From Betaproteobacteria bacterium (GTDB lineage: Bacteria; Pseudomonadota; Gammaproteobacteria; Burkholderiales; Gallionellaceae): 12,966 nucleotides of DNA. Both the position numbers and the translations under genes were made by a program. Below, piece by piece: positions 575 to 11,508 of the stretch; the first letter of the stretch is position 1; every line of letters starts with the position of its first letter. Location: NCBI GenBank assembly GCA_028871775.1, contig JAGWMH010000026.1:1-12966 (forward strand), given 5' to 3'. Below the pieces are notes generated by a model. The model was not told the origin of the DNA and made no database searches. It was given only the letters and a program-made list of their open reading frames with translations.

Positions 575-1087
575 TTATTTCTGCGCGCTGATCGCGGTGA
601 GTATGCCCTGCAATATCGCGCTGGGCGTGGGTGGGCAACCGCTCACCATCACATCCACCGGAATGACGCTGGCGACCCCTCCGCAACTGGCATAGCTCGC
701 GCCGAATATTCCGCCATCGCGGGCGCAGTCGCCGATTGCCACCACCAGCTTGGGTTCCGGTGTGGCGTCGTAGGTAAGTTTGAGCGCCGTTTCCATATGC
801 CGTGACACCGGGCCGGTGACCAGCAATATATCCGCATGGCGCGGGCTGGCGACGAATTTGATGCCCAGCCCCTCGATGTTGTAATAGGCGTTGTTCACCG
901 CTTGTATCTCCAGCTGGCAAGCGTTGCATGAGCCGGCATCCACGTGGCGTATGGCGAGCGCGCGCCCGAGCACATCGAGGATTTGCTGCTGCAGCCGCTG
1001 CGGCTCGACGCGCATCGCCTCATCCGGCTGCGGCGCGGCTTCGGTCTTGATGCCGGTTTTGACGATCTGTTTGAGGATTTGGTACAT
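575..1087 (-). CDS. hyfI: HyfI/HycG-like (NuoB-like) Fe-S subunit of Hyf-type complex
   Basis: A protein of 170 residues of the NuoB/HycG/HyfI 20-kDa family, which holds the [4Fe-4S] cluster nearest the active site or quinone site of complex I and group 4 hydrogenases. The four expected ligands are present: Cys54 and Cys57 in GSCNACQLE, Cys121 in GDCARDGG and Cys151 in SGCPPTP. The CxxC spacing is of hydrogenase type, not the adjacent CC of complex I. The ATG at 1087 is chosen because it overlaps the hyfG stop by one base (TAATG) and has an AGGA ribosome site six bases upstream. A longer in-frame extension to 1195 would run into hyfG and looks non-native. It is the last gene of the operon and sits on the cytoplasmic face of the complex. 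Because its cluster is intact, electron transfer through this subunit is still likely although the neighbouring large subunit has no NiFe site. Confidence 0.9.
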   Translation of the reverse strand: MYQILKQIVKTGIKTEAAPQPDEAMRVEPQRLQQQILDVLGRALAIRHVDAGSCNACQLEIQAVNNAYYNIEGLGIKFVASPRHADILLVTGPVSRHMETALKLTYDATPEPKLVVAIGDCARDGGIFGASYASCGGVASVIPVDVMVSGCPPTPSAILQGILTAISAQK

Positions 1088-2637
1088 TACAAATCCTGCC
1101 CTGAATAACTGAGATTGAAAGATTTGTTGATCAGCGGGAAATCCGGCACGATGTTGTCCAGCACGGCGTGTTCCAGCACGGGCCAGTTCTGCCACGACGG
1201 ATCATGCGGATGCACGCGCGCGAGATTGCCCTGCGCATTGCTGTGGACCGCTACCATCACTTCGCCGCGCCAGCCTTCCACCATGCCCACGCCGAAGCCG
1301 TTGCCGGGCAATTTTTCCAGCGGCATCGCCAATTCATCGCCGCCTGTCAGGTTGACCAGGATCTCGCGCTGCAAGCGCAATGATTCGAGCAGCTCATCGA
1401 AGCGCACGATCACGCGCGCCGCGACATCGCCGTTGCGATAAGTCGCCATCTGCACGTCCAGCCTGTCATAAGGGGCGCAGGGAAACTGCACGCGCGCATC
1501 CCAGGCCTGCGCGCTGGCGCGCCCTGCCAAGCCGCATAGTCCAAGCTGGGCGGCCAGTTTCGGCTCGATCCGCCCGGCACCGATGAAACGATCCTGTACC
1601 CCGGCGTGGTCATCATAGATGCCGCGCAACAGGCGTACTTCGCGCTCCAGCATGGCGCATTCTTCTTCAATCATGCGTCTGCCTTCAGCGGACAGGTCGG
1701 CGGTTACACCACCCGGAATAATCCTGTCCATCAGATAGCGATGCCCGAACAGCGCGGCATTGTTGCGCAGCATCTGCTCCTTCAAAATCCAGAACTGCGC
1801 AAAGCCAAACGACAGCGCAACATCGCTGCCCAGATAACCGAGATCACCCAGGTGGTTGGCGACACGTTCACGTTCCAGAAACAACGCGCGCAGCCACAGC
1901 GCACGGGCCGGCGGCGTAATGCCGGCAATGCCTTCCGCTGCCATTGCATAAGCCCACGCGTAAGCCACGCTGCTGTCGCCGCTCACCCGGCCAGCGAGCT
2001 TCGCGCCTTGCTGCAAAGTCATGCTCTCAAAACGTTTCTCAATGCCCTTGTGGGTATAGCCCAGGCGTTGTTCAAGGCGCAGCATCTTTTCGCCAACGAC
2101 GGAAAAACGGAAATGCCCCGGCTCGATGATGCCGGCATGTACCGGCCCCACGGGAATTTCATGCACGCCTGTTCCTTCCACGTGCACGAAAGGATAAGCA
2201 TCCAACTCATCGCTGCGGCTCTGTGCAGCGTCGAAATCCTTGCGCAATGGAAAACTGCCGCTGTGCCATGCACCGTGGCGCAACCATTTGCGGTGATCGC
2301 CGCCTTCATGCGCGTAGATGCCGAGTAAATCGTACGCAGCACGTTGCATGCGGTTGGCCTGAGGAAAGATGTGGCTAATGTCCGGGTAGACGGGGTGATC
2401 TTCGGCCAGCGGCAGGTTCAGGCAAACCAGACCGGCCTCATTCACCAGCAGCGTGTGCAGCACAAAGCCGTGCTGCGTCACGCGCCAGTCGCTGCCCCAC
2501 AACGCCAGCAATCGCCCGCCGCCGTCGCGCACGCCCTGGCAGATCGGCTGCAAATCACCGGCGGCGATCTTGCCGTGCCAAGCCGGAATCGCGCCGTTCA
2601 TGGGCTCAGGTTGCAGATTGGGATGTTTGATCGGCAT
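1087..2637 (-). CDS. hyfG: HyfG/HycE-like (NuoC-NuoD fusion) large subunit lacking the NiFe-binding cysteines
   Basis: A protein of 516 residues with an N-terminal NuoC-like (30-kDa) part at about 1-150 and a NuoD/hydrogenase-large-subunit part at about 160-516. E. coli HycE/HyfG are about 570. In true group 4 hydrogenases two CxxC pairs bind the nickel-iron centre, in R-V-C-G-I-C and D-P-C-x-x-C. Here the first site reads R217-V-S-G-D-S222, so both cysteines are serine, and the following His position is Tyr226. The C-terminal site, aligned by its S-F-N-L-S-Y-S-G-Q-D-L ending, has Ser510 and Gly513. The protein stops there, so no processed C-terminal extension exists. The loss at both sites with the fold intact points to an Ehr-type subunit and not to a hydrogenase. 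The ATG at 2637 has AGGA eight bases upstream and follows the hyfF stop by four bases. Confidence 0.9.
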   Translation of the reverse strand: MPIKHPNLQPEPMNGAIPAWHGKIAAGDLQPICQGVRDGGGRLLALWGSDWRVTQHGFVLHTLLVNEAGLVCLNLPLAEDHPVYPDISHIFPQANRMQRAAYDLLGIYAHEGGDHRKWLRHGAWHSGSFPLRKDFDAAQSRSDELDAYPFVHVEGTGVHEIPVGPVHAGIIEPGHFRFSVVGEKMLRLEQRLGYTHKGIEKRFESMTLQQGAKLAGRVSGDSSVAYAWAYAMAAEGIAGITPPARALWLRALFLERERVANHLGDLGYLGSDVALSFGFAQFWILKEQMLRNNAALFGHRYLMDRIIPGGVTADLSAEGRRMIEEECAMLEREVRLLRGIYDDHAGVQDRFIGAGRIEPKLAAQLGLCGLAGRASAQAWDARVQFPCAPYDRLDVQMATYRNGDVAARVIVRFDELLESLRLQREILVNLTGGDELAMPLEKLPGNGFGVGMVEGWRGEVMVAVHSNAQGNLARVHPHDPSWQNWPVLEHAVLDNIVPDFPLINKSFNLSYSGQDL

Positions 2638-2641
2638 AGTC

Positions 2642-4099
2642 TTATCCTAGCAGGGCCGCTGCCTGGCGATACCAGCCCGCCAGATAGGGTGGCATGTACA
2701 AACCCAGTATCAATGCCAGCAGCAGATGGACGAACACCGGGATCAGCGCGGGCGGATGCGGCAAGCGGCGCGCGGTGGTTTCGCCGAACACGATGGGCTG
2801 TATCTTGCCGAAAATCGCGGCGAAGGCAATGCCCAGAGCGGCGAGCAGGATCGGCGTGGACCACGGGTAGCTGTGCATCGCCGTGGTGATAATCAGAAAT
2901 TCGCTGGCGAATACGCCGAACGGCGGCATGCCGAGAATGGCGAAGGTTCCCAGTGCCAGCCCCCAACCCACCGTCGGGCTGATCTGCAGCATGCCGCGTA
3001 TGTGTTCCATCTGCTGCGTTCCGGATTTTTGCACGGCGTGGCCCACGGCGAAGAAGATCGCCGACTTCACCAGGCTGTGCACGGTCATATGCAACATTCC
3101 GGCGAAAGTCGCCACGGCGCCGCCCATGCCGAAAGCAAAAGTGATGAGCCCCATGTGTTCGATGGAGGAATAGGCGAACATGCGCTTGATGTCTTTTTGC
3201 CGCGACAGGAACAATGCGGCGACTACCACGGAGAGCAGGCCGAAGCCCATCATCAGGTTGCCGGCGAAATGATTGCCCAGCGAACCATCCACCAGCACCT
3301 TGCTGCGCATCACCGCGCACAATGCAATGTTCAGCAACAAACCTGAAAGCACGGCGGAAACCGGTGTGGGGCCTTCCGCATGTGCATCCGGCAGCCAGCT
3401 GTGCAGCGGCACCAGGCCGATCTTGGTGCCGTAGCCTACCAGCAGGAACACGAATGCCAGCTTGAGCACGGTGGGCTCCAGATCAGTTTTGACCTGGTTC
3501 AAGTGCGTCCACAGCAAGGCGGTGCCGCCCTGGCCAAGGACGCGCTCGGCGGCAAAATACAACAGAATGGTGCCGAACAAGGCCAGCGCGATGCCCACGC
3601 CGCACAGGATGAAATACTTCCACGCCGCCTCAAGGCTGGCGGGGGTACGATACAGGCTGACCAGCAGTACCGTGGTCAGCGTGGCCGCTTCCATCGCCAC
3701 CCAGATAATGCCCATGTTGTTGGTGGTCAAGGCAAGCAGCATGGTGAACGTGAACAGCTGATACATGCTGTAGTACAGATGGAGCATCGGCGTGCTGAGC
3801 TTGCCGTGATGCTGTTCAACCCGCATGTAGGGGCGCGAGAACAGCGAGGTGGTGAAGGCCACAAAGGCGGTCAGGGCGACCAGAAACACGTTGAACGGAT
3901 CAATAAAAAACTGTTCGTTAAACGCGACTTGCGGGCCTTGCTCGACCACGCGCATGGTGAGCGCCACCGAGGCGAGAAAAGTGAAACCGCTCATCAGCGA
4001 ATTCAGCTCGGCAGCCCAGCGGCGCGAGCCGAACACGGCCAGCAAACCGCCACCCAACAGCGGTGTGAGTAATAGCGCCAGAAGTTGCAGGTCAATCAT
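2642..4099 (-). CDS. hyfF: HyfF-like proton-pumping membrane subunit (NuoN/NuoM/NuoL family)
   Basis: An integral membrane protein of 485 residues (E. coli HyfF is 526) of the Mrp/antiporter-like family. It has about 14 hydrophobic helices. The family's charged pathway residues are visible: Glu137 in WVAMEAATL, Lys161 in AAWKYF, and Lys226 and His233 in GTKIGLVPLHSWLPDAHAEGP, followed by the KRMFAYSSIEHMG helix. It probably carries one proton (or sodium) channel of the complex. The start at 4099 is preferred over an extension to 4210 because it gives a normal membrane N-terminus (MIDLQLLALL), overlaps the hyfE stop by eight bases and has a GGAAAA site upstream. The extension would be a Ser-rich shadow of hyfE. 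Confidence 0.9.
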   Translation of the reverse strand: MIDLQLLALLLTPLLGGGLLAVFGSRRWAAELNSLMSGFTFLASVALTMRVVEQGPQVAFNEQFFIDPFNVFLVALTAFVAFTTSLFSRPYMRVEQHHGKLSTPMLHLYYSMYQLFTFTMLLALTTNNMGIIWVAMEAATLTTVLLVSLYRTPASLEAAWKYFILCGVGIALALFGTILLYFAAERVLGQGGTALLWTHLNQVKTDLEPTVLKLAFVFLLVGYGTKIGLVPLHSWLPDAHAEGPTPVSAVLSGLLLNIALCAVMRSKVLVDGSLGNHFAGNLMMGFGLLSVVVAALFLSRQKDIKRMFAYSSIEHMGLITFAFGMGGAVATFAGMLHMTVHSLVKSAIFFAVGHAVQKSGTQQMEHIRGMLQISPTVGWGLALGTFAILGMPPFGVFASEFLIITTAMHSYPWSTPILLAALGIAFAAIFGKIQPIVFGETTARRLPHPPALIPVFVHLLLALILGLYMPPYLAGWYRQAAALLG

Positions 4100-4754
4100 C
4101 TTTAAGCTTTTCCATGTGGGTGATGTCGAGGCTGTCGAAGGTCTCGCGCAGCTGGAAGAAGAAGATGCCGAAGATGAAGGTGCCCACCAGCACGTCCAAT
4201 GCGATGCCAAGCTCCACCACTAACGGCATGCCGTGCGTGGCGCTGGTCGCGGCAAAGAACAGGCCATTTTCCATCGCCAGAAAACCAACCACCTGCGGCA
4301 CTGCCTTGCGCCGCGTAATCATCATCAGCAGCGACAGCAGCACGCTGGCCAGCGCAATACCGATCAAACCGCGGGTAATGCTTTCGGATAACTGGGAAAT
4401 GGGCGCGGCCAGGTTGAAGGCGAAAATCACCAGCACGATACCGACCAGCATGGTGGTCGGAATATTGATCAGTGTTTCCACATCCCATTTCACGTTCAGC
4501 TTGTGGATCAGGCGGTGCAGCAGCCAGGGCAGGATCAGCACCTTGAGCAATAGCGTCAGTGCGGCGGAGTAATACAGATGATGCTGCGCAGTGGAATAGG
4601 CCACCACGAAGGTGCTGGCCGACAACGCCAGCCCCTGCCAGGCAAACAATTTGATCAGGGAAAGGATGCGGCGTTGCGACAGCATGGCGAAGGCGATCAG
4701 CAGCAGGATGGATGCGAGCAGGTTGATGATTTGTGTGGTGAACGGAATGGACAT
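4092..4754 (-). CDS. hyfE: HyfE-like membrane subunit (NuoK-like)
   Basis: A hydrophobic protein of 220 residues, matching the HyfE family length (E. coli 216). The C-terminal half contains the conserved GFLAMENGLFFAATS helix with its buried glutamate, the hallmark of the NuoK/MrpC-like part of HyfE. It helps connect the antiporter-like subunits to the rest of the complex in the inner membrane. The ATG at 4754 is unusual in that its only visible ribosome site, AGAGG at 4762-4766 on the minus strand, seven bases upstream, lies inside the end repeat of the palindromic element at 4755-4899. The stop overlaps the start of hyfF, so those two genes are translationally coupled. Confidence 0.88.
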   Translation of the reverse strand: MSIPFTTQIINLLASILLLIAFAMLSQRRILSLIKLFAWQGLALSASTFVVAYSTAQHHLYYSAALTLLLKVLILPWLLHRLIHKLNVKWDVETLINIPTTMLVGIVLVIFAFNLAAPISQLSESITRGLIGIALASVLLSLLMMITRRKAVPQVVGFLAMENGLFFAATSATHGMPLVVELGIALDVLVGTFIFGIFFFQLRETFDSLDITHMEKLKDD

Positions 4755-4900: not shown

Positions 4901-5863
4901 TCACGCACCCAGCAGGAAATGAATCAACAGCCCCAACACCGCCAGCAAAAACGCCGTACCCAGAAATTCCGGGGCACGGAAGATGCGCATCTTGGCGAGC
5001 AGGGCTTCGAGCAAGGCGAGTCCCGCGCCGGCCAATGCCAGTTTCACCAGCAACGCGGCGATGGCCAGCGGCAGTACACCCCAATTGCCCACCTCGGCGA
5101 TGCCGTATGGCACGAACAAGGCGATGCCTATGGATATGTAAGCCAGCAACTTCAGGTTGCTCGCCCATTCCACCAGGGCCAGATGTCGCGCCGAGTATTC
5201 CAGGATCATCGCTTCATGGATCATGGTCAATTCCAGATGTGTGCTGGGATTGTCCACCGGGATGCGCGCATTCTCGGCCAGCAGCACAATCACAAAAGCC
5301 AATCCGGCAAAAGCGAGGCTCGGGTACAGCACGAACTCGTGATGTGCGAACGTTCCCACGATGTGCGGCAACTGCGTCGAGTGGCTGATCAGCGAGGAGG
5401 TGAAGAACACCATCAGCAAGGCCGGTTCGGCGAGGAACGACACCAGCATTTCGCGCCGTGCGCCGAGCGAACCGAACGCCGTGCCGATATCCATCGCGGC
5501 CAGCGAAATGAATACGCGTGCCAGCGCAAACACGCCGACCAGCGCGATCACATCGGCAGCTGGCGAGAATGGCAAATCTATCGCGATGATGGGAATGATG
5601 GCCGCCGCCAGCCACATGCAGCCGAACAGAATGTAGGGGGTGATGCGGAATAGCGGCGAGGCGTTATAGGCCAGTACAGCATCCTTGTGAAACAGCTTGC
5701 GCAACGTGCGATAGGGTTGCAACAGGCCGGCGCCAGAGCGGTTTTGCAGCCAGGCACGGCACTGGTTCACCCATCCGGTCAGTAGCGGCGCGAGTGCCAC
5801 CACCAGCAGCGACTGGCAGAGCTGGAAAAGAATGCCGAGTGTTTGACTTGCGTTATTCGTCAT
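4901..5863 (-). CDS. hyfC: HyfC/HycD-like membrane subunit (NuoH-like)
   Basis: A membrane protein of 320 residues in the NuoH/HycD/HyfC family, the subunit that docks the hydrophilic arm and, in complex I, forms the quinone entry. Family motifs are clear: QPYRTLRKLFHKD near residues 49-61, GSLGARREML at 131-140, LAEPALL at 144-150, and AENARIPVDNPSTHLELT at 196-213 followed by EAMILEYS. About eight helices are predicted by eye. The length equals the usual family length. The ATG at 5863 overlaps the hyfB stop as ATGA. No strong ribosome site is visible, so translational coupling to hyfB is likely. Its stop is followed one base later by the palindromic element, which separates it from hyfE. 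Confidence 0.9.
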   Translation of the reverse strand: MTNNASQTLGILFQLCQSLLVVALAPLLTGWVNQCRAWLQNRSGAGLLQPYRTLRKLFHKDAVLAYNASPLFRITPYILFGCMWLAAAIIPIIAIDLPFSPAADVIALVGVFALARVFISLAAMDIGTAFGSLGARREMLVSFLAEPALLMVFFTSSLISHSTQLPHIVGTFAHHEFVLYPSLAFAGLAFVIVLLAENARIPVDNPSTHLELTMIHEAMILEYSARHLALVEWASNLKLLAYISIGIALFVPYGIAEVGNWGVLPLAIAALLVKLALAGAGLALLEALLAKMRIFRAPEFLGTAFLLAVLGLLIHFLLGA

Positions 5864-7869
5864 ACAAAAGCGAGCAGCACAACCAGCGTGGCAAAGGTAT
5901 AGGTCAGATACAAATGAATGCGCCCATGCTGCAACAACGAAGCCCGGGACGAGAGTTTTTCGGTGAGGCTCTTGATCGGAAGATACAGCGCGAACCAGAT
6001 GCGATCATCGCTGCGGCCGTGATAGCGGGGATGCGTATCGAATGCACTCGGCAGCTCGCTTTCGATGCGGAAGAATGGCTCGAAAATGCGCCGGATCGGT
6101 TGCCCGAACCCTTCGGCGGTGTCTTGCATACGCGCATTTTGCACCGGGAAACCGCAGTTCCATGCCGGGCCGCGGCGCAGCCGGCCGTGATAGAAGCGAT
6201 GCACCCCCAATGCGGTCATCAGCATCACCCCCAGCACCGCCGACAGGAAGATCACCGGGCTGTAACTGGCACGCTCGATGTCCACCGGCGCGAGAAATAA
6301 CCAGCCAGCCGCCGCATTGCCAAGGCCGTGGCCAAGCAACATGCGAGTGACCTGATCGAGGTGCTGCACTACAAATACCGGTGCCAGGCCCAGTACCACA
6401 CAAACAATGGCCAGCCAGGTTAACCCGATACGTTCCCAGATGCCTGCATCGTGGGCCTGCTCCAGTGCTTTCTCGCGGTGCTGCCCCAGAAAAATAATCC
6501 CGTAGAATTTCACCATCACATATGCCGCCAACGCCGCAGCCAGCGCAATCACGGCAGCGGCCACCGGGATCAGCATATTGATGTAGCTGTTTGGCAAGCC
6601 GGGGGACAGCAAGAAGGCTTGCAACAACAGCCATTCCGAGACAAAACCATTGAACGGTGGCAGGCCGGATATGGACAGCACACCGACCAGCATCAGCGCT
6701 GCGGCCCAGGGCATCTTGCGGATCAGTCCGCCCAGGCGCCCCATGTTGCGCTCGCCGGTCGCATGCAGGATCGAGCCTGTGCCGATAAACAGCAAGCTTT
6801 TGAAGAAGGCGTGATTCAGGCAGTGGTACAACGCCGCGGTGAGCGACAAAGCCGCCAGCGCGTCCTTGCCATATACGTGGAAGATGACAGTCAAGCCGAT
6901 ACCCACCAGCAGCAGCCCGGCGTTCTCAATTGAAGAATAGGCCAGCAGGCGTTTCATATCGCCTTGCACGGCGGCAAACATCACACCGAAAACCGCGGTA
7001 ATCAGCCCCAGTGCCAACGCCAGCACGCCCCACCACCACAGCTGTGTAGCCAGCAAATCGAAAGTGATGCGCAGGATGCCGTAGATCGCAGTCTTTAACA
7101 ACACGCCGCTCAGCAGCGCGGCAACCGGTGAGGGCGCGGCAGGGTACGCCTCGGGCAACCAGACGTGCAGCGGCAACACACCGGCCTTGGCGCCGAAGCC
7201 GAATAACGCCAGCAAAAACGCTATTGATGACCAGAACGGCGACAGGTGCGCCTCGCGCATTGCGGCAAAAGTGTACGCGCCGATGCCGTGTCCGCCTTGC
7301 ATCACGCCAAAGCAGAGCAGAATGCTAATGGCACCGACGTGCGCAACCAGAAGATACAGGAAGCCCGCCTTGCGGATGTCGGGAATAGCGTGATCGGTGG
7401 TCACCAGAAAATAGGAGGATAACGCCATGGACTCCCATGCCACCATGAACATATAGGCGTCATCGGCAACCAATATCAGCGCCATGCTGGCGAGAAACAG
7501 ATGGTATTCGAGGCACAGCAGAGCGAGCATACCGCCGGCCATGCTCCGGAAATAACCGGCACTGAACAGCGACACACCAAATGATGCGCCACCCAACAGG
7601 ATCAGGAAAAATGCGGCGAGCGGGTCGAGACGGAGGTGTAAAGGCAGATCAGGCAGACCGAGCGGCAACACGGCAATGCTGGGGGCTGCACCGAGAGCCC
7701 ACAAGCCCGTTCCGGCCACAACGAGCGCGGCAATCGCGCCGAGGGGGAAGATGATGCTGCTGATGAGATGCGGTGTGTTTTGCAACACCAGCCCGAATAA
7801 TCCGAGCACCAGCCAGAGCAGAATCACTCCGCCCAACACATCCAACGGCAATATGCCCACTGCATCCAT
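5860..7869 (-). CDS. hyfB: HyfB/HycC-like proton-pumping membrane subunit (NuoL-like)
   Basis: A large antiporter-like membrane protein of 669 residues (E. coli HyfB is 672). Conserved pathway residues include Glu146 in FMVAWESMALSSYFLV, Lys228 and His235 in GFGAKAGVLPLHVWLPEA, Lys259 in the next helix, then MKRLLAYSSIENAG and SISGLPPFNGFVSEW. The last third has a long polar stretch (about 575-640) between terminal helices, as in HycC/HyfB. It starts the operon. The ATG at 7869 has only a weak ribosome site directly upstream. An AAGAGGTG lies about 15-21 bases upstream, and the GTG in it runs straight into a stop. With HyfF it would give two ion channels per complex. HyfD, a third antiporter-like subunit in E. 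coli Hyd-4, is absent. Confidence 0.9.
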   Translation of the reverse strand: MDAVGILPLDVLGGVILLWLVLGLFGLVLQNTPHLISSIIFPLGAIAALVVAGTGLWALGAAPSIAVLPLGLPDLPLHLRLDPLAAFFLILLGGASFGVSLFSAGYFRSMAGGMLALLCLEYHLFLASMALILVADDAYMFMVAWESMALSSYFLVTTDHAIPDIRKAGFLYLLVAHVGAISILLCFGVMQGGHGIGAYTFAAMREAHLSPFWSSIAFLLALFGFGAKAGVLPLHVWLPEAYPAAPSPVAALLSGVLLKTAIYGILRITFDLLATQLWWWGVLALALGLITAVFGVMFAAVQGDMKRLLAYSSIENAGLLLVGIGLTVIFHVYGKDALAALSLTAALYHCLNHAFFKSLLFIGTGSILHATGERNMGRLGGLIRKMPWAAALMLVGVLSISGLPPFNGFVSEWLLLQAFLLSPGLPNSYINMLIPVAAAVIALAAALAAYVMVKFYGIIFLGQHREKALEQAHDAGIWERIGLTWLAIVCVVLGLAPVFVVQHLDQVTRMLLGHGLGNAAAGWLFLAPVDIERASYSPVIFLSAVLGVMLMTALGVHRFYHGRLRRGPAWNCGFPVQNARMQDTAEGFGQPIRRIFEPFFRIESELPSAFDTHPRYHGRSDDRIWFALYLPIKSLTEKLSSRASLLQHGRIHLYLTYTFATLVVLLAFV

Positions 7870-8210: not shown

Positions 8211-8900
8211 TCACCAGGTCATGGTGGGCTCATAAACATGGCGCAGTTGCCAGTTGGCATCCTTGTAAGACCCGCCGGCATGTTTCCCGGTATCCTCACT
8301 GCCTATGTTATAGCCGCCCAGGTTGACCTGCCGCTGGCGTTCAACCCTGTAATATTCGCCCATTTTGGCAGGAGGCAACGCCTGCCTCTGGCCCATCATG
8401 GGATTGTGGCAGGACGGACAGCCCAGGGTCTTGACGGGGTGCCCGCTGGCCACCACGGCTCCCATCGGGACAACCCAGGCAAGCCCGGCATAGAGGGCAA
8501 TCGCCGCGATTGACGTGGCCTTGATCCCGGCACGGAGTCTGCTGCGCTTGCGAAAAATAACGGGCACCAGAAACAGAAAAATCACCGCCAGGAACGGGAG
8601 CCAGAACGTGCCCACCGGCAACCATTTGGCGTTGTCCCCCGTCAGATACCAGAAAGGCTGAAACAGAAACATCAGATACCATTCCGGGGCGGGTATGTGG
8701 AACCCCTCATCAGCCATGGGCGGCATCGTGGGATCCATGGGCACCCTGATGAAATAGGACAACACCAGCAACCCCAGGAATATGACCGCTATCAGCGTGC
8801 CGGCCTTCACCGCATGTTTCGGCCAGAAGGGATAAAACGACTGCGGATAAGGAGGAGCGTACTTGGGTTCCATGATGATTTCTGTCTTTTTGTGTGCCAT
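8211..8900 (-). CDS. Cytochrome b C-terminal domain (subunit IV-like) fused to a heme c tail
   Basis: A protein of 229 residues. The first 150 resemble subunit IV of b6f complexes (C-terminal part of cytochrome b). It has three helices at about 33-52, 98-116 and 129-150 and the quinol-site motif P72-E-W-Y75 in HIPAPEWYLMF. After the third helix a short tail carries one CxxCH heme c site (Cys161, Cys164, His165) and ends in K213-D-x6-H221-x3-P225-x3-W229. With an N-terminus inside, three helices place the tail in the periplasm, where heme c is attached, so the topology agrees. It follows the b6-like gene by 32 bases and would pair with it to make a full cytochrome b. The tail is shorter than a normal cytochrome c domain. 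The ATG at 8900 is chosen by reading-frame extent; Met10 is an alternative. No Rieske gene is adjacent. Confidence 0.85.
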   Translation of the reverse strand: MAHKKTEIIMEPKYAPPYPQSFYPFWPKHAVKAGTLIAVIFLGLLVLSYFIRVPMDPTMPPMADEGFHIPAPEWYLMFLFQPFWYLTGDNAKWLPVGTFWLPFLAVIFLFLVPVIFRKRSRLRAGIKATSIAAIALYAGLAWVVPMGAVVASGHPVKTLGCPSCHNPMMGQRQALPPAKMGEYYRVERQRQVNLGGYNIGSEDTGKHAGGSYKDANWQLRHVYEPTMTW

Positions 8901-8932
8901 GAGCTGGTTACCCCCGTGAAGCTTGCAGTGGT

Positions 8933-9553
8933 TTATAGAGGCCCTGAGATTCCGTAGCGCCGCACCATCTTGAAGTGAAAAAACAAGATAGTGGCAAGAA
9001 TCAACGGAATTGCCAATATATGGGTGTAATACGCCGCATTGAGGGTAAAGGTATCAAGCATCACGGACTTGAGGGATTCCCCCCCGATCGTCCACGTTCC
9101 CACGTAATCCATCCACAGCGCAAAAGACCAGTAGGACCTCCAGTCCCATGGGAGAATAATCCCGGTTGCGACCATCAGGAACACCATGAGCAACTGGGAG
9201 ACTCCGGTCAGCCAGGTAAACTGCCTGGGGCTCTGGTAGGCTTTCAAATAAAAGACGATGACCATGTGGGAAAACACGGTTGCCACAAGAAGGGTGGAGG
9301 TCCAGCGGTGCATGTTTCTGAACAGCCATCCCAGGGTCACCTCGTTGCTTAAGTGCGCAATGCTTTGCAATGCCTTGGTGGGTTCGGGAGTGTAGAAGAA
9401 AAGCATGAACCCACCCGAGACCAGCTGGAGGAGGATGAGGAACAGTGAAAAGCCGCCAAAGCAGTAGAAGAAATTAACGTGTGCAGGGATCGGCTTCCCT
9501 TTTTTTAACCGGATCCGCTCCTTGATCCACTCCGCAACCTTGGCAGAACTCAT
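8933..9553 (-). CDS. Cytochrome b6-like N-terminal half of a split cytochrome b
   Basis: A four-helix protein of 206 residues, like cytochrome b6 (about 215). The four heme b ligands are visible: His82 (NMHRWT) and His96 (FSHMV), 14 apart; His178 (YTHIL) and His193 (FFHFK), 15 apart. The 15-residue spacing in the last pair is the b6 pattern, not the mitochondrial one. Cys31 in HVNFFYCFGG sits where b6 has the cysteine that binds heme c_i, so a third heme at the cytoplasmic-side quinone site is likely. The PWDWR motif at 135-139 matches the quinol-side loop. The ATG at 9553 has a GAAGGG ribosome site and follows the lipoprotein stop by two bases. The subunit IV-like partner is immediately downstream. 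It would form the quinol-oxidising/reducing core in the inner membrane. Confidence 0.9.
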   Translation of the reverse strand: MSSAKVAEWIKERIRLKKGKPIPAHVNFFYCFGGFSLFLILLQLVSGGFMLFFYTPEPTKALQSIAHLSNEVTLGWLFRNMHRWTSTLLVATVFSHMVIVFYLKAYQSPRQFTWLTGVSQLLMVFLMVATGIILPWDWRSYWSFALWMDYVGTWTIGGESLKSVMLDTFTLNAAYYTHILAIPLILATILFFHFKMVRRYGISGPL

Positions 9554-9555
9554 CG

Positions 9556-10059
9556 TTATTTACCCTTCGGTGAAATTTCGGACTTGCTTGCAGCTATTGC
9601 CTCGTCTTTTTGCATGCCATAGCTATCGCCGGTAAAATCAATCTTCCAGGTGTTGGTAGCGGGATCAACATTAAGAGGCAGCACCTCTTGCACCGTATAT
9701 TCGCCACCAAAGCTGGAGGGCATTTTATAGCTTATGGTGACGAGGGCTTGCGTCCCTTTGATCTCGGCTTTGCCCACATCCACCGCGAATTTTTCCGGAT
9801 AACCCTTGATAACCTCCAGAAACTGGTTCACGTTCAAATTGGAAACCCTGGTATCGACCATCTTGTACGCTTCACTGGCGGTCGTAGCGCCACCTTCGAC
9901 CTTTGCAGCCGAGATCAATTCATAGAACCGTTTTGCGACGTCTTCAGGTTTTTCATCAGGCAAAGAACTGGTGCCCCCCAAACGACCACAGCCCGTTATC
10001 GCAATGGCGAGAATAAATAACAGGCAGCTATAAAACTCTTTATTACGCTTCAGGATCAA
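9556..10059 (-). CDS. Predicted lipoprotein of the cytochrome b cluster
   Basis: A protein of 167 residues with a lysine/arginine-containing N-terminus, a hydrophobic stretch and a lipobox I-T-G-C with Cys24 as the lipidated residue. Glycine and not aspartate follows it, so outer-membrane sorting or periplasmic exposure is allowed. The mature part (PEDVAKRFYELI, a long middle with VSYK/PSSFGGEYTVQEV-like strands) suggests a small alpha+beta NTF2-like or DUF4878-like fold; this is an impression, not a firm match. There is no CxxCH and no Rieske CTHLGC-type motif, so it is not the missing redox subunit. The start is TTG at 10059, supported by GAGGAG at 10066-10071 with a six-base spacer; no ATG is suitably placed. 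It lies two bases ahead of the b6-like gene, so it is probably an accessory or assembly factor of that complex. Confidence 0.75.
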   Translation of the reverse strand: MILKRNKEFYSCLLFILAIAITGCGRLGGTSSLPDEKPEDVAKRFYELISAAKVEGGATTASEAYKMVDTRVSNLNVNQFLEVIKGYPEKFAVDVGKAEIKGTQALVTISYKMPSSFGGEYTVQEVLPLNVDPATNTWKIDFTGDSYGMQKDEAIAASKSEISPKGK

Positions 10060-10198: not shown

Positions 10199-11374
10199 CT
10201 ACCAGATAACTTGCGGATAAAACCAGTGCCCCACCATAAACGTATTATCTTTGAGATTGGGGTTCATTACCCTATCCTTGAATGTTGCTGGAGGCAGCCC
10301 CAAGCGGAGTCCTGCAGTAATGTTGTGACATGAATTACAGCCATACGTTGGGGATTTATGGGAAACAGCATAAAGTGGACCGAACAAGACCATCGACACC
10401 AGAAAAACAGTTAGAAAGGCTAACGTTTTTGCATAAGCTCTTGCCCCCAAGGCTTTCTGGAAAGGCGCCATAATTTTTGTAAACGCACCACTCCTCTCGA
10501 TGGGATGGGTCTCTTGCTCAATGTTTCTGCCACTCTTGCCCCTCCTTCTCCTAGTAAAATAAGGGAATATCGCCAATACCAGAAAAATGATAACCGGGAT
10601 ATAGAAGGCGAATAATGTCGCCATAAACCCCTTGAAATACAAGTAGGGTACATAAAATATAAGAATGAACCATTCGGCAGTGGGAATATTTTCACCATCC
10701 AATGGCATCGGTATTATCGCCGGATCCTGGGAAGGCATCGGCAATGCATACGCCAGCACGGCAATAGCCAGCAAAAACGGAAGGGTAAGCGGAGTATGTT
10801 CAAGGACATACAGGGTAAGTCCACCCGTTCTTTTCATAACCCGGGTAAAGGTGTGAATACCCATTAACACTAACGTGACTGCCGGAAGAATACAAACATG
10901 CATTACCAGCGTTCGATTAAGGGTAAAGGCGCTGATTAGGAAATCACTTAAAGAAGGTCCGATCAAGGGGAGTTCATACACGTAATTAGGCACCATCTCC
11001 ATGAACCAGTACCCTCTCCATTCCCATGGCAAGATAACTCCTGTAAACAAAAAACCCAACATGGGCAGGTAGAGCAGGATTCCGGTCAGCCACAATGTCT
11101 TGCTGTCCCGGTTAAGATAATCCTTTCTTAAAAAGCTTCTTATGAAATGCATTATTACTGCAACCATCAAGAATAGTGCGGCCCAGCGGTGGGTATCCCT
11201 GATCCATGCAACTACACTAAGCTCATTGTAGATTTTTTGCACACTGGCGTAGGCTTCGTTCAGATGAGGATCATAAAACATCGTCAAAACCGAGCCGGAA
11301 AGAATTTGAATAATCAGGAGGAGAAGAGCAACCCCGCCAAAAAAGTGGTGCCAATGCGCTTGTTTAATTTTCAT
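10199..11374 (-). CDS. Full-length cytochrome b fused to a C-terminal heme c site
   Basis: A protein of 391 residues that joins a b6-type N-terminal half, a subunit-IV-type half and a heme c tail in one chain. Heme b ligands are His62 (DTHRW) and His76 (IMHF), and His159 (VMHV) and His174 (GIHTF), again with the b6-like 15-residue spacing. The quinol-site PEWY motif is altered to A233-E-W-F236, but the glutamate is kept. The position equivalent to the heme c_i cysteine is phenylalanine (HHFFGG), unlike the neighbouring split protein. An Arg-rich cytoplasmic loop (275-279) follows the sixth helix. The tail has Cys346, Cys349, His350 and ends K375-D-x6-H383-x3-P387-x3-W391, matching the other heme c tail. 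Seven helices put it in the periplasm. The ATG at 11374 has CAGG about seven bases upstream; a TTG at 11398 is less likely. Base composition is visibly lower in G+C than the hyf operon. Confidence 0.87.
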   Translation of the reverse strand: MKIKQAHWHHFFGGVALLLLIIQILSGSVLTMFYDPHLNEAYASVQKIYNELSVVAWIRDTHRWAALFLMVAVIMHFIRSFLRKDYLNRDSKTLWLTGILLYLPMLGFLFTGVILPWEWRGYWFMEMVPNYVYELPLIGPSLSDFLISAFTLNRTLVMHVCILPAVTLVLMGIHTFTRVMKRTGGLTLYVLEHTPLTLPFLLAIAVLAYALPMPSQDPAIIPMPLDGENIPTAEWFILIFYVPYLYFKGFMATLFAFYIPVIIFLVLAIFPYFTRRRRGKSGRNIEQETHPIERSGAFTKIMAPFQKALGARAYAKTLAFLTVFLVSMVLFGPLYAVSHKSPTYGCNSCHNITAGLRLGLPPATFKDRVMNPNLKDNTFMVGHWFYPQVIW

Positions 11375-11508
11375 AAATAACCTGAGTGTGTGTAGCAACC
11401 CGCATTTGATCTGGCAGGCAACGAAGCTTAAATGAATTGAGGGAACGCACTATAAACTCCATACCTGAAGGTCGCATGGAATTGATACTCGGGTGGATGA
11501 GTCACTAC

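Follow-up and report, generated by a model that had tools for sequence, protein, structure and literature searches.

Energy-converting-hydrogenase-related (Ehr) complexes, reportedly recognized by Coppi in 2005 and by Marreiros in 2013, are the described systems with which we compare hyfG, a gene for a hydrogenase-like large subunit, and its five companion genes in a 12,966-nucleotide stretch of Gallionellaceae DNA (the window: positions 1 to 12,966 of contig JAGWMH010000026.1, assembly GCA_028871775.1; contig C306 of genome G000 in our labels). The host assembly measures 2.04 Mb and is 96% complete. The window gene almost certainly encodes the large subunit of an Ehr complex, the published complexes being compared by description only. 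Ehr has been described before, and the loss of metal ligands is itself not a new observation; what this analysis adds is a six-gene hyfBCEFGI unit without HyfA and HyfH, with a pocket of its own, intact channel residues and the four cluster cysteines of HyfI.

In the parts of the literature available to us, Ehr is recorded from Sulfobacillus, with six syntenic genes near each catalytic subunit, the motifs missing and no function stated as known (PMC4378227); from about half of Nitrospirales genomes (PMC12342949); and in accounts of comammox bacteria (PMC10284858), ammonia-oxidizing archaea (PMC10432482, a review) and Riflemargulisbacteria (PMC6349859). As in the window, these complexes combine Hyf- or complex-I-like genes with a large subunit that lacks RxCGxC and DPCxxC; the accounts, as far as available, differ in giving no residue-level pocket that could be set beside the families we call types A and B. 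A term search of the displayed parts of a Gallionellaceae pangenome paper (PMC10734462) returned no "Hyf", and "Ehr" only as Ehrenberg; a similar search of a paper on freshwater iron oxidizers (PMC3770913) returned no word starting with "hydrogenase".

Four other systems frame the comparison. Escherichia coli hydrogenase-4 and formate hydrogenlyase (FHL; large subunits HyfG and HycE) share with the window subunits B, C, E, F, G and I, the fold by homology, the β1-β2 Glu, the canopy Arg and most of the proton path, whereas the window block lacks HyfA, HyfD, HyfH, the four cysteines and a HycI-type C-terminal peptide and carries Asn for the canopy Asp. Complex I (NuoCD) has the same C-terminal end position, no [NiFe] and a homologous membrane arm, but its quinone His and Tyr are absent from the window protein, no NuoE, NuoF, NuoG or NuoI is found among the block's open reading frames (ORFs) in the window, and the cluster cysteines are spaced as in hydrogenases. 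The MBS complex of Pyrococcus furiosus is likewise a NiFe-less relative that has lost the quinone residues; according to the part of PMC7684303 available, it differs in keeping two of four Cys, in a three-Cys cluster and in having no equivalent of MbhL E21. By comparison, the window shows all four Cys sites changed, a four-Cys HyfI and a retained Glu. The group 4 cluster AFE2149-54 of Acidithiobacillus ferrooxidans, compared by description only, also comprises six genes in a chemolithotroph; the section of PMC2621215 available calls it a hydrogenase and offers conversion of proton-motive force into reducing power as one role.

Lost [NiFe] ligands and family placement

The gene hyfG (1087..2637, minus strand, 516 aa) encodes a NuoC-NuoD-like protein whose best PDB match is formate hydrogenlyase subunit 5 (E 5e-52). 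Alignment with E. coli K-12 HyfG, HycE and NuoCD sets S219, S222, S510 and G513 opposite the HycE cysteines C241, C244, C531 and C534, bearing out the claim of an earlier note on this DNA that all four [NiFe] cysteines are lost. The translation reads R217-V-S-G-D-S222 at the first ligand motif (residues 216–223, G-R217-V-S219-G-D221-S222-S; 1969..1992, minus strand, coordinates taken from the reading frame) and N504-KSFNLSYSGQDL516 at the tail (C-terminal motif NKSFNLSYSGQDL, residues 504–516; 1090..1128, minus strand); neither the RxCGxC nor the DPCxxC motif of active group 4 [NiFe] hydrogenases is present. Five cysteines remain (33, 72, 327, 368 and 387), none in CxxC spacing, and there is therefore no displaced CxxC pair. 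Mature HycE (R537) and NuoCD end at the same position as this protein, which accordingly has no peptide for a HycI-type protease to remove. We also considered selenocysteine at an in-frame TGA and rejected it: in cases such as genome G245 the query overruns the gene, and in G000 the same flag is raised by TAA, so that these are most likely gene-end stops.

The substitutions are shared across the family. In an 81-member set that includes the window, drawn from loci found by a scan with six peptide patterns, none placed at a ligand site, G220, D221, S510 and G513 occur in 81/81 members and S219 in 80/81, while position 222 is S in 71/81, T in 8 and A in 2. The only CxxC in the set lies in the N-terminal extension of one ORF (L047), and 157 columns, nearly the whole C-terminal tail among them, are identical in at least 80 of the 81 rows. 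A wider set of 61 type-A rows, one of which (L118) ends before the last two ligand positions, has S 57, C 2, V 1 and A 1 at position 219; S 49, T 5, C 3, A 3 and M 1 at 222; S 55 and A 5 at 510; and G 59 and A 1 at 513. Six plasmid-borne type-A sequences were read separately; two of them depart from the pattern, position 219 being A and position 510 N. Among the plasmid sources, the motif reading covers one record each from Burkholderia, Methylovirgula, Paraburkholderia, C. metallidurans, Variovorax and Azospirillum, and none from Rhizobium. None of the rows examined carries the four-cysteine set, and the occasional Cys at 219 (two rows) and 222 (three rows) fits a stepwise loss.

Measured against four relatives, hyfG shows dN/dS values of 0.10–0.13, indicating purifying selection; the gene therefore looks functional, which speaks against decay. 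HypD (PF01924), the one Hyp gene covered, has no match in the host genome. Among 185 genomes of the class, about one per family, we set 25 type-A carriers by hand at E<=1e-80, the next matches being 3e-57 and weaker; 13 of the 25, the host included, lack HypD, and type-A Ehr therefore needs no [NiFe] assembly machinery. Carriage of HypD and of Ehr are not clearly associated across the 185 genomes (no clear enrichment, p 0.38). Judged from its residues, a complex without metal ligands is very unlikely to carry out H2 chemistry, and to that extent the earlier note's statement that the subunit neither makes nor uses H2 holds; the metal loss gives no indication of the real reaction.

In a tree of 52 NuoD-like domains, a branch with 100/99 support separates 33 type-A and five further NiFe-less rows from the Cys-bearing Hyc/Hyf, MbhL and complex I rows; the tree is midpoint-rooted, carries a long-branch warning and includes, as Cys-bearing hydrogenase rows, seven Hyc/Hyf sequences and one MbhL fragment. 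Two things looked for in response to the earlier note, CxxC pairs elsewhere in the protein and clustering inside active group 4 hydrogenases, were thus not found, and its assignment to an Ehr-type large subunit is supported by the tree and by the carriers without HypD.

On the minus strand, the block runs between 7869 and 575 in the order hyfB, hyfC, hyfE, hyfF, hyfG, hyfI. It comprises an antiporter-like subunit with channel Lys, Glu and His residues (hyfB, 5860..7869); a NuoH/HycD-like membrane anchor whose E-channel is conserved in part (hyfC, 4901..5863); a HyfE-like membrane subunit matched below the curated cut-off (hyfE, 4092..4754); a second antiporter-like subunit (hyfF, 2642..4099, its ORF being listed from 4210 with 4099 the likely start); hyfG; and the proximal [4Fe-4S] subunit of 170 aa (hyfI, 575..1087). 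HyfB and HyfF score above their NCBIfam cut-offs. The hyfG stop and the hyfI ATG share one base (TAATG), and the two are therefore probably translated jointly. All six genes occur in this order in 85 of 105 loci (65/80 near and 20/25 distant); the other 20 lack one or more genes, mostly at contig ends, and no locus has another order. The same order appears in four annotated plasmid regions. Two further arrangements were seen: a lone hyfG (L127, 8530–10128 when read with hyfG on the plus strand) with no other hyf match within 14.1 kb, and a second, diverged hyfB, C, E and F set, 45–55% identical, immediately after the first operon and containing a contig end (L053, 7675–11849).

By HyfG protein, the closest relatives come from Nitrosomonadales and Gallionella genomes (L003, 88% identical), in keeping with a Gallionellaceae host. 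Type-A sources include Sideroxydans, Gallionella, Thiobacillus, Sulfuricella, Sulfuriferula, Methylococcus and other methanotrophs, Mariprofundus and a Nitrospinota metagenome-assembled genome; plasmid sources are Cupriavidus, Paraburkholderia, Burkholderia, Rhizobium, Azospirillum and Methylovirgula. Ehr stands in iron, sulfur, methane and nitrogen oxidizers and in soil heterotrophs under hydrogenase names: databases call the type-A protein a hydrogenase, a formate hydrogenlyase or NADH-quinone oxidoreductase subunit C, as the earlier note had warned in calling hydrogenase-4 and formate hydrogenlyase annotation misleading.

The pocket, HyfI and the membrane arm

We mapped pocket residues by alignment to HycE, using the superfamily map in section 10 of PMC9474812 for the HycE and complex I residues and counting over the 61 type-A rows. 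HycE Glu193, in the β1-β2 loop, corresponds to E172 (61/61); HycE Asp192, the quinone-His position of complex I, to I171 (61/61); and the quinone-Tyr position to G220 (G 60, A 1). The Ile of CGIC is replaced by D221 (61/61). Of the canopy pair, HycE Arg478 is retained as R457 in all 60 rows reaching that far, whereas Asp529 is N508 in 60/60; the section of PMC9474812 consulted calls this Asp "strictly conserved" across the superfamily and states that its loss impairs quinone reduction by complex I. HycE Ser283/His284 correspond to N261/H262 and E437 to E415 (each 61/61), and R395, on the proton path, to R373 (R 53, K 8). E172, D221, N261, N508 and the DL end are also kept in the six plasmid rows. 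At the residue level, then, the type-A clade has departed from the hydrogen pattern and the quinone pattern alike, yet keeps strictly to one of its own. The canopy Asp-to-Asn change was not met in the parts of the Ehr literature available.

HyfI retains its cluster cysteines throughout: of 105 loci, 100 gave a hyfI match, and among these C90 and C93 (ORF numbering) are present in 100/100 and C157 and C187 in 99/99, with the hydrogenase type of spacing (CNxC) and no deletion. In the membrane arm, HyfB E146, K228, K259, H349, H353, K357 and E412 and HyfF E174, K263, H378 and E437 match channel residues of NuoL/NuoM and of E. coli HyfB/HyfF, and HyfC keeps R116, E138, E146, E197, E211 and E217. 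For HyfE, comparison with NuoK Glu36/Glu72 gave no useful alignment.

A possible history of the missing ferredoxin-type subunit can be sketched. In the 25 type-A loci queried with E. coli proteins, neither HyfH nor HycF gave a match in the interval from hyfG to hyfI. Over its first ~20 residues, HyfI is similar to the HyfH/HycF N-terminus (E 0.0026 and 0.0035 in a 27-protein set, aligned from residue 1); NuoI ranked last in this search, and the three top matches, the fused proteins of L149, L150 and L187, cover only the other half of the profile, which makes the HyfI N-terminus a weak candidate for a HyfH/HycF relic. HyfH-HyfI fusions do occur in other NiFe-less operons, namely type B (L149–L152) and the first operon of a Variovorax plasmid (L187), whose fusion protein has confirmed Fer4 domains. 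Together, the N-terminal likeness and these fusions suggest that HyfH was fused to HyfI and that the ferredoxin part was then lost in type A. No such relic was met in the portions of the Ehr literature available.

Type B (L149, L150, L151 and L152) is a second NiFe-less family; its HyfH and HyfI seem to form a single fused protein, and the canopy Asp is replaced by Gly ([ST]FGL). The first Variovorax operon (L187, 1270–3485) is a diverged, type-A-like Ehr with a Fer4-HyfI fusion, directly ahead of a normal type-A operon. Its large subunit carries IVGDSS and SFDLSYCGNDL, keeps the canopy Asp and is 32–33% identical to type A. The tree labels it type B, an assignment that we rejected on account of these diverged type-A-like motifs; it belongs to neither type and may be an intermediate.

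Candidate functions of the complex

At the level of sequence, the subunit make-up, the lost ligands and the cluster and channel residues are established. We infer that HyfB, HyfC, HyfE, HyfF, HyfG and HyfI form one complex, because of the operon and by homology. The overall explanation that we favor, though tentatively, is a six-subunit Ehr acting as a redox-driven, reversible proton pump, with the empty pocket taking up a different acceptor, for which a quinone is the likeliest candidate. Coupling of redox chemistry to pumping we regard as probable in its own right; quinone as the acceptor is possible, a little short of an even chance. A soluble low-potential carrier would dock on the face that the absence of HyfH leaves exposed and exchange electrons with the single HyfI [4Fe-4S] cluster, which would in turn exchange them with the organic acceptor in the former [NiFe] pocket. 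Glu172 of the β1-β2 loop and Asp221 would assume the head-group and proton roles of complex I His38 and Tyr87, and loop movement would pass along the charged axis of HyfC to HyfF and HyfB, which would move protons. In iron, sulfur and methane oxidizers, which feed electrons in at high potential, the complex would run mostly backward, spending proton-motive force on low-potential electrons.

In favor of this model stand the constant six-gene order, the HyfI cluster cysteines, the channel residues of HyfB and HyfF, the strictly kept pocket residues (E172, D221, N261, H262, E415 and R457), the low dN/dS and the carriers without hypD. Several observations weigh against this pump. Both complex I quinone residues are absent (I171 and G220), the canopy Asp is invariantly Asn508 and the proton-path position of HycE R395 varies between R and K. 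HyfC has Ser and His at HycD E199 and E201 and Gly at Y102, and HyfF has Asn at NuoM K265, as does E. coli HyfF. No recurrent electron-input gene stands beside the block. The case for reverse flow is drawn from lifestyle, and the Rhizobium, Azospirillum and Burkholderia carriers do not need it.

The pocket itself allows another reading, which we consider unlikely. Ser-Gly-Asp for Cys-Gly-Ile, Asn for the canopy Asp and the NKSxN...DL C-terminus could mark one more type of active site for the complex I superfamily, next to those for hydrogen, quinone and sulfane sulfur. The complex would then perform a new reaction, possibly linked to inorganic-carbon or anion uptake and coupled to proton pumping without a ferredoxin-type subunit.

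Neighboring genes bear on a separate reading, in which Ehr, SulP and carbonic-anhydrase-like partners energize bicarbonate (or sulfate) uptake; DAB and NDH-1MS energize inorganic-carbon uptake by other means. SulP, a family of anion transporters, forms the largest cluster among upstream neighbors. Of the 73 loci with a hyfB preceded by 2.3 kb or more of sequence, 19 have a SulP gene on the same strand no more than 800 bases upstream of hyfB. A protein like CsoSCA, the carboxysome shell carbonic anhydrase, is encoded near Ehr in 7/105 loci, one of them (L130) of a distant family; its TIGR02701 matches fall below the curated cut-off (E 1.4e-9 and 2.1e-10), and one of two proteins tested has no Pfam match. 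L049 has a β-carbonic anhydrase, and L074 a CbbR-like LysR regulator and an Mrp antiporter operon. We nonetheless judge uptake improbable. All 19 SulP cases fall among the 54 eligible near relatives and none among the 19 eligible loci of other families, although in L147 SulP precedes hyfF and hyfG; the window has no SulP, the SulP of L049 scores above cut-off as a sulfate permease rather than BicA, and five of the seven CsoSCA-like genes are on the opposite strand. RuBisCO is not enriched either (14–15/25 carriers versus 76–77/160 others, p 0.29–0.52). A link between SulP and Ehr was not met in the available parts of the Ehr literature.

It is slightly less probable still that a formate dehydrogenase, or another molybdoenzyme partner, supplies the electrons. 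E. coli FHL offers a model, and the catalytic subunit Fdh-alpha (TIGR01591) is found above cut-off in 10/25 carriers versus 34/160 others (p 0.07); among 80 loci, the flanks of three contain DmsB-like genes and those of four DmsC-like genes, both of a kind that serves molybdoenzymes. At E<=1e-100, however, Fdh-alpha has no match in the host genome and occurs in 17/25 carriers versus 90/160 others (p 0.29), and the FeS subunits that join FdhF to the hydrogenase arm are missing. An FDH-Ehr has been proposed for Riflemargulisbacteria in the part of PMC6349859 available.

We assign a similarly low probability to a redox arm that is dead or serves only as a sensor, leaving the membrane arm to act as an antiporter. 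The loss of the four ligands, the quinone residues and the canopy Asp, together with a window free of input subunits, would agree with this; against it stands the near or complete invariance of the cluster cysteines, H262, E415, R457 and most of the C-terminal tail.

Catalysis at the cluster, the HyfI [4Fe-4S] center being the very site at which polysulfide or some other substrate in the empty pocket is reduced, appears more improbable again. In MBS, where the quinone His and Tyr are missing as well, sulfane sulfur is reduced at the proximal cluster (PMC7684303, in the part available), and many carriers are sulfur oxidizers by name. The cysteine motif of MBS is, in the same source, three residues shorter with one Cys unbound, whereas HyfI has four Cys in hydrogenase spacing and no deletion, and methanotrophs and rhizobia are among the carriers. 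Lastly, an active hydrogenase with displaced or variant ligands, as the database names and the stray Cys at 219 and 222 might suggest, is already contradicted by a window protein without CxxC, the lack of any four-Cys row and a host without a hypD match, and is hardly credible.

With its strict pocket, its missing electron-input subunit and its SulP and carbonic-anhydrase-like neighbors, the complex offers precise residues and partners for experiment, and the role of Ehr can be addressed in cultured carriers, among them Methylococcus capsulatus, Cupriavidus necator and Sideroxydans lithotrophicus.

Other genes in the window and at related loci

Upstream of the block, still on the minus strand, the window carries two cytochrome b units (8211–9553 and 10199–11398). 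One is a split b6/subunit-IV pair whose second part has the c-type heme motif CPSCH; the other is fused and has CNSCH. Their b6 parts resemble ExtP-type cytochrome b, with scores under the curated cut-off. We rejected these units as redox partners of the complex: of 80 loci only L003, which starts inside the gene, has a match, and they are a local neighbor. Between them is a possible lipoprotein of 167 aa with no Pfam match (9556–10059, minus), and upstream of the cytochrome b genes lies a secreted-looking FGE/SUMF1-domain protein (PF03781; 11642–12331, minus).

A spermidine-synthase-like gene occurs in the flanks of 13/105 loci and near the operon in three annotated plasmids; in L003, a decayed C-terminal fragment of such a gene (146–444) sits between the cytochrome b gene and hyfB.

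No second NuoD was found in the host genome with PF00346. Another host contig (C336, locus L089, 3325–9911), which ends near nuoJ, encodes four consecutive antiporter-like complex I subunits, a set resembling 2M complex I. Four further loci (L120–L123) hold complex-I-like NuoB-C-D sets with the motif RICVPDPV / SLDACPPEVDR and a HycF-like protein of 448–467 aa; in some of them the NuoB partner is cut or scored as HyfI.

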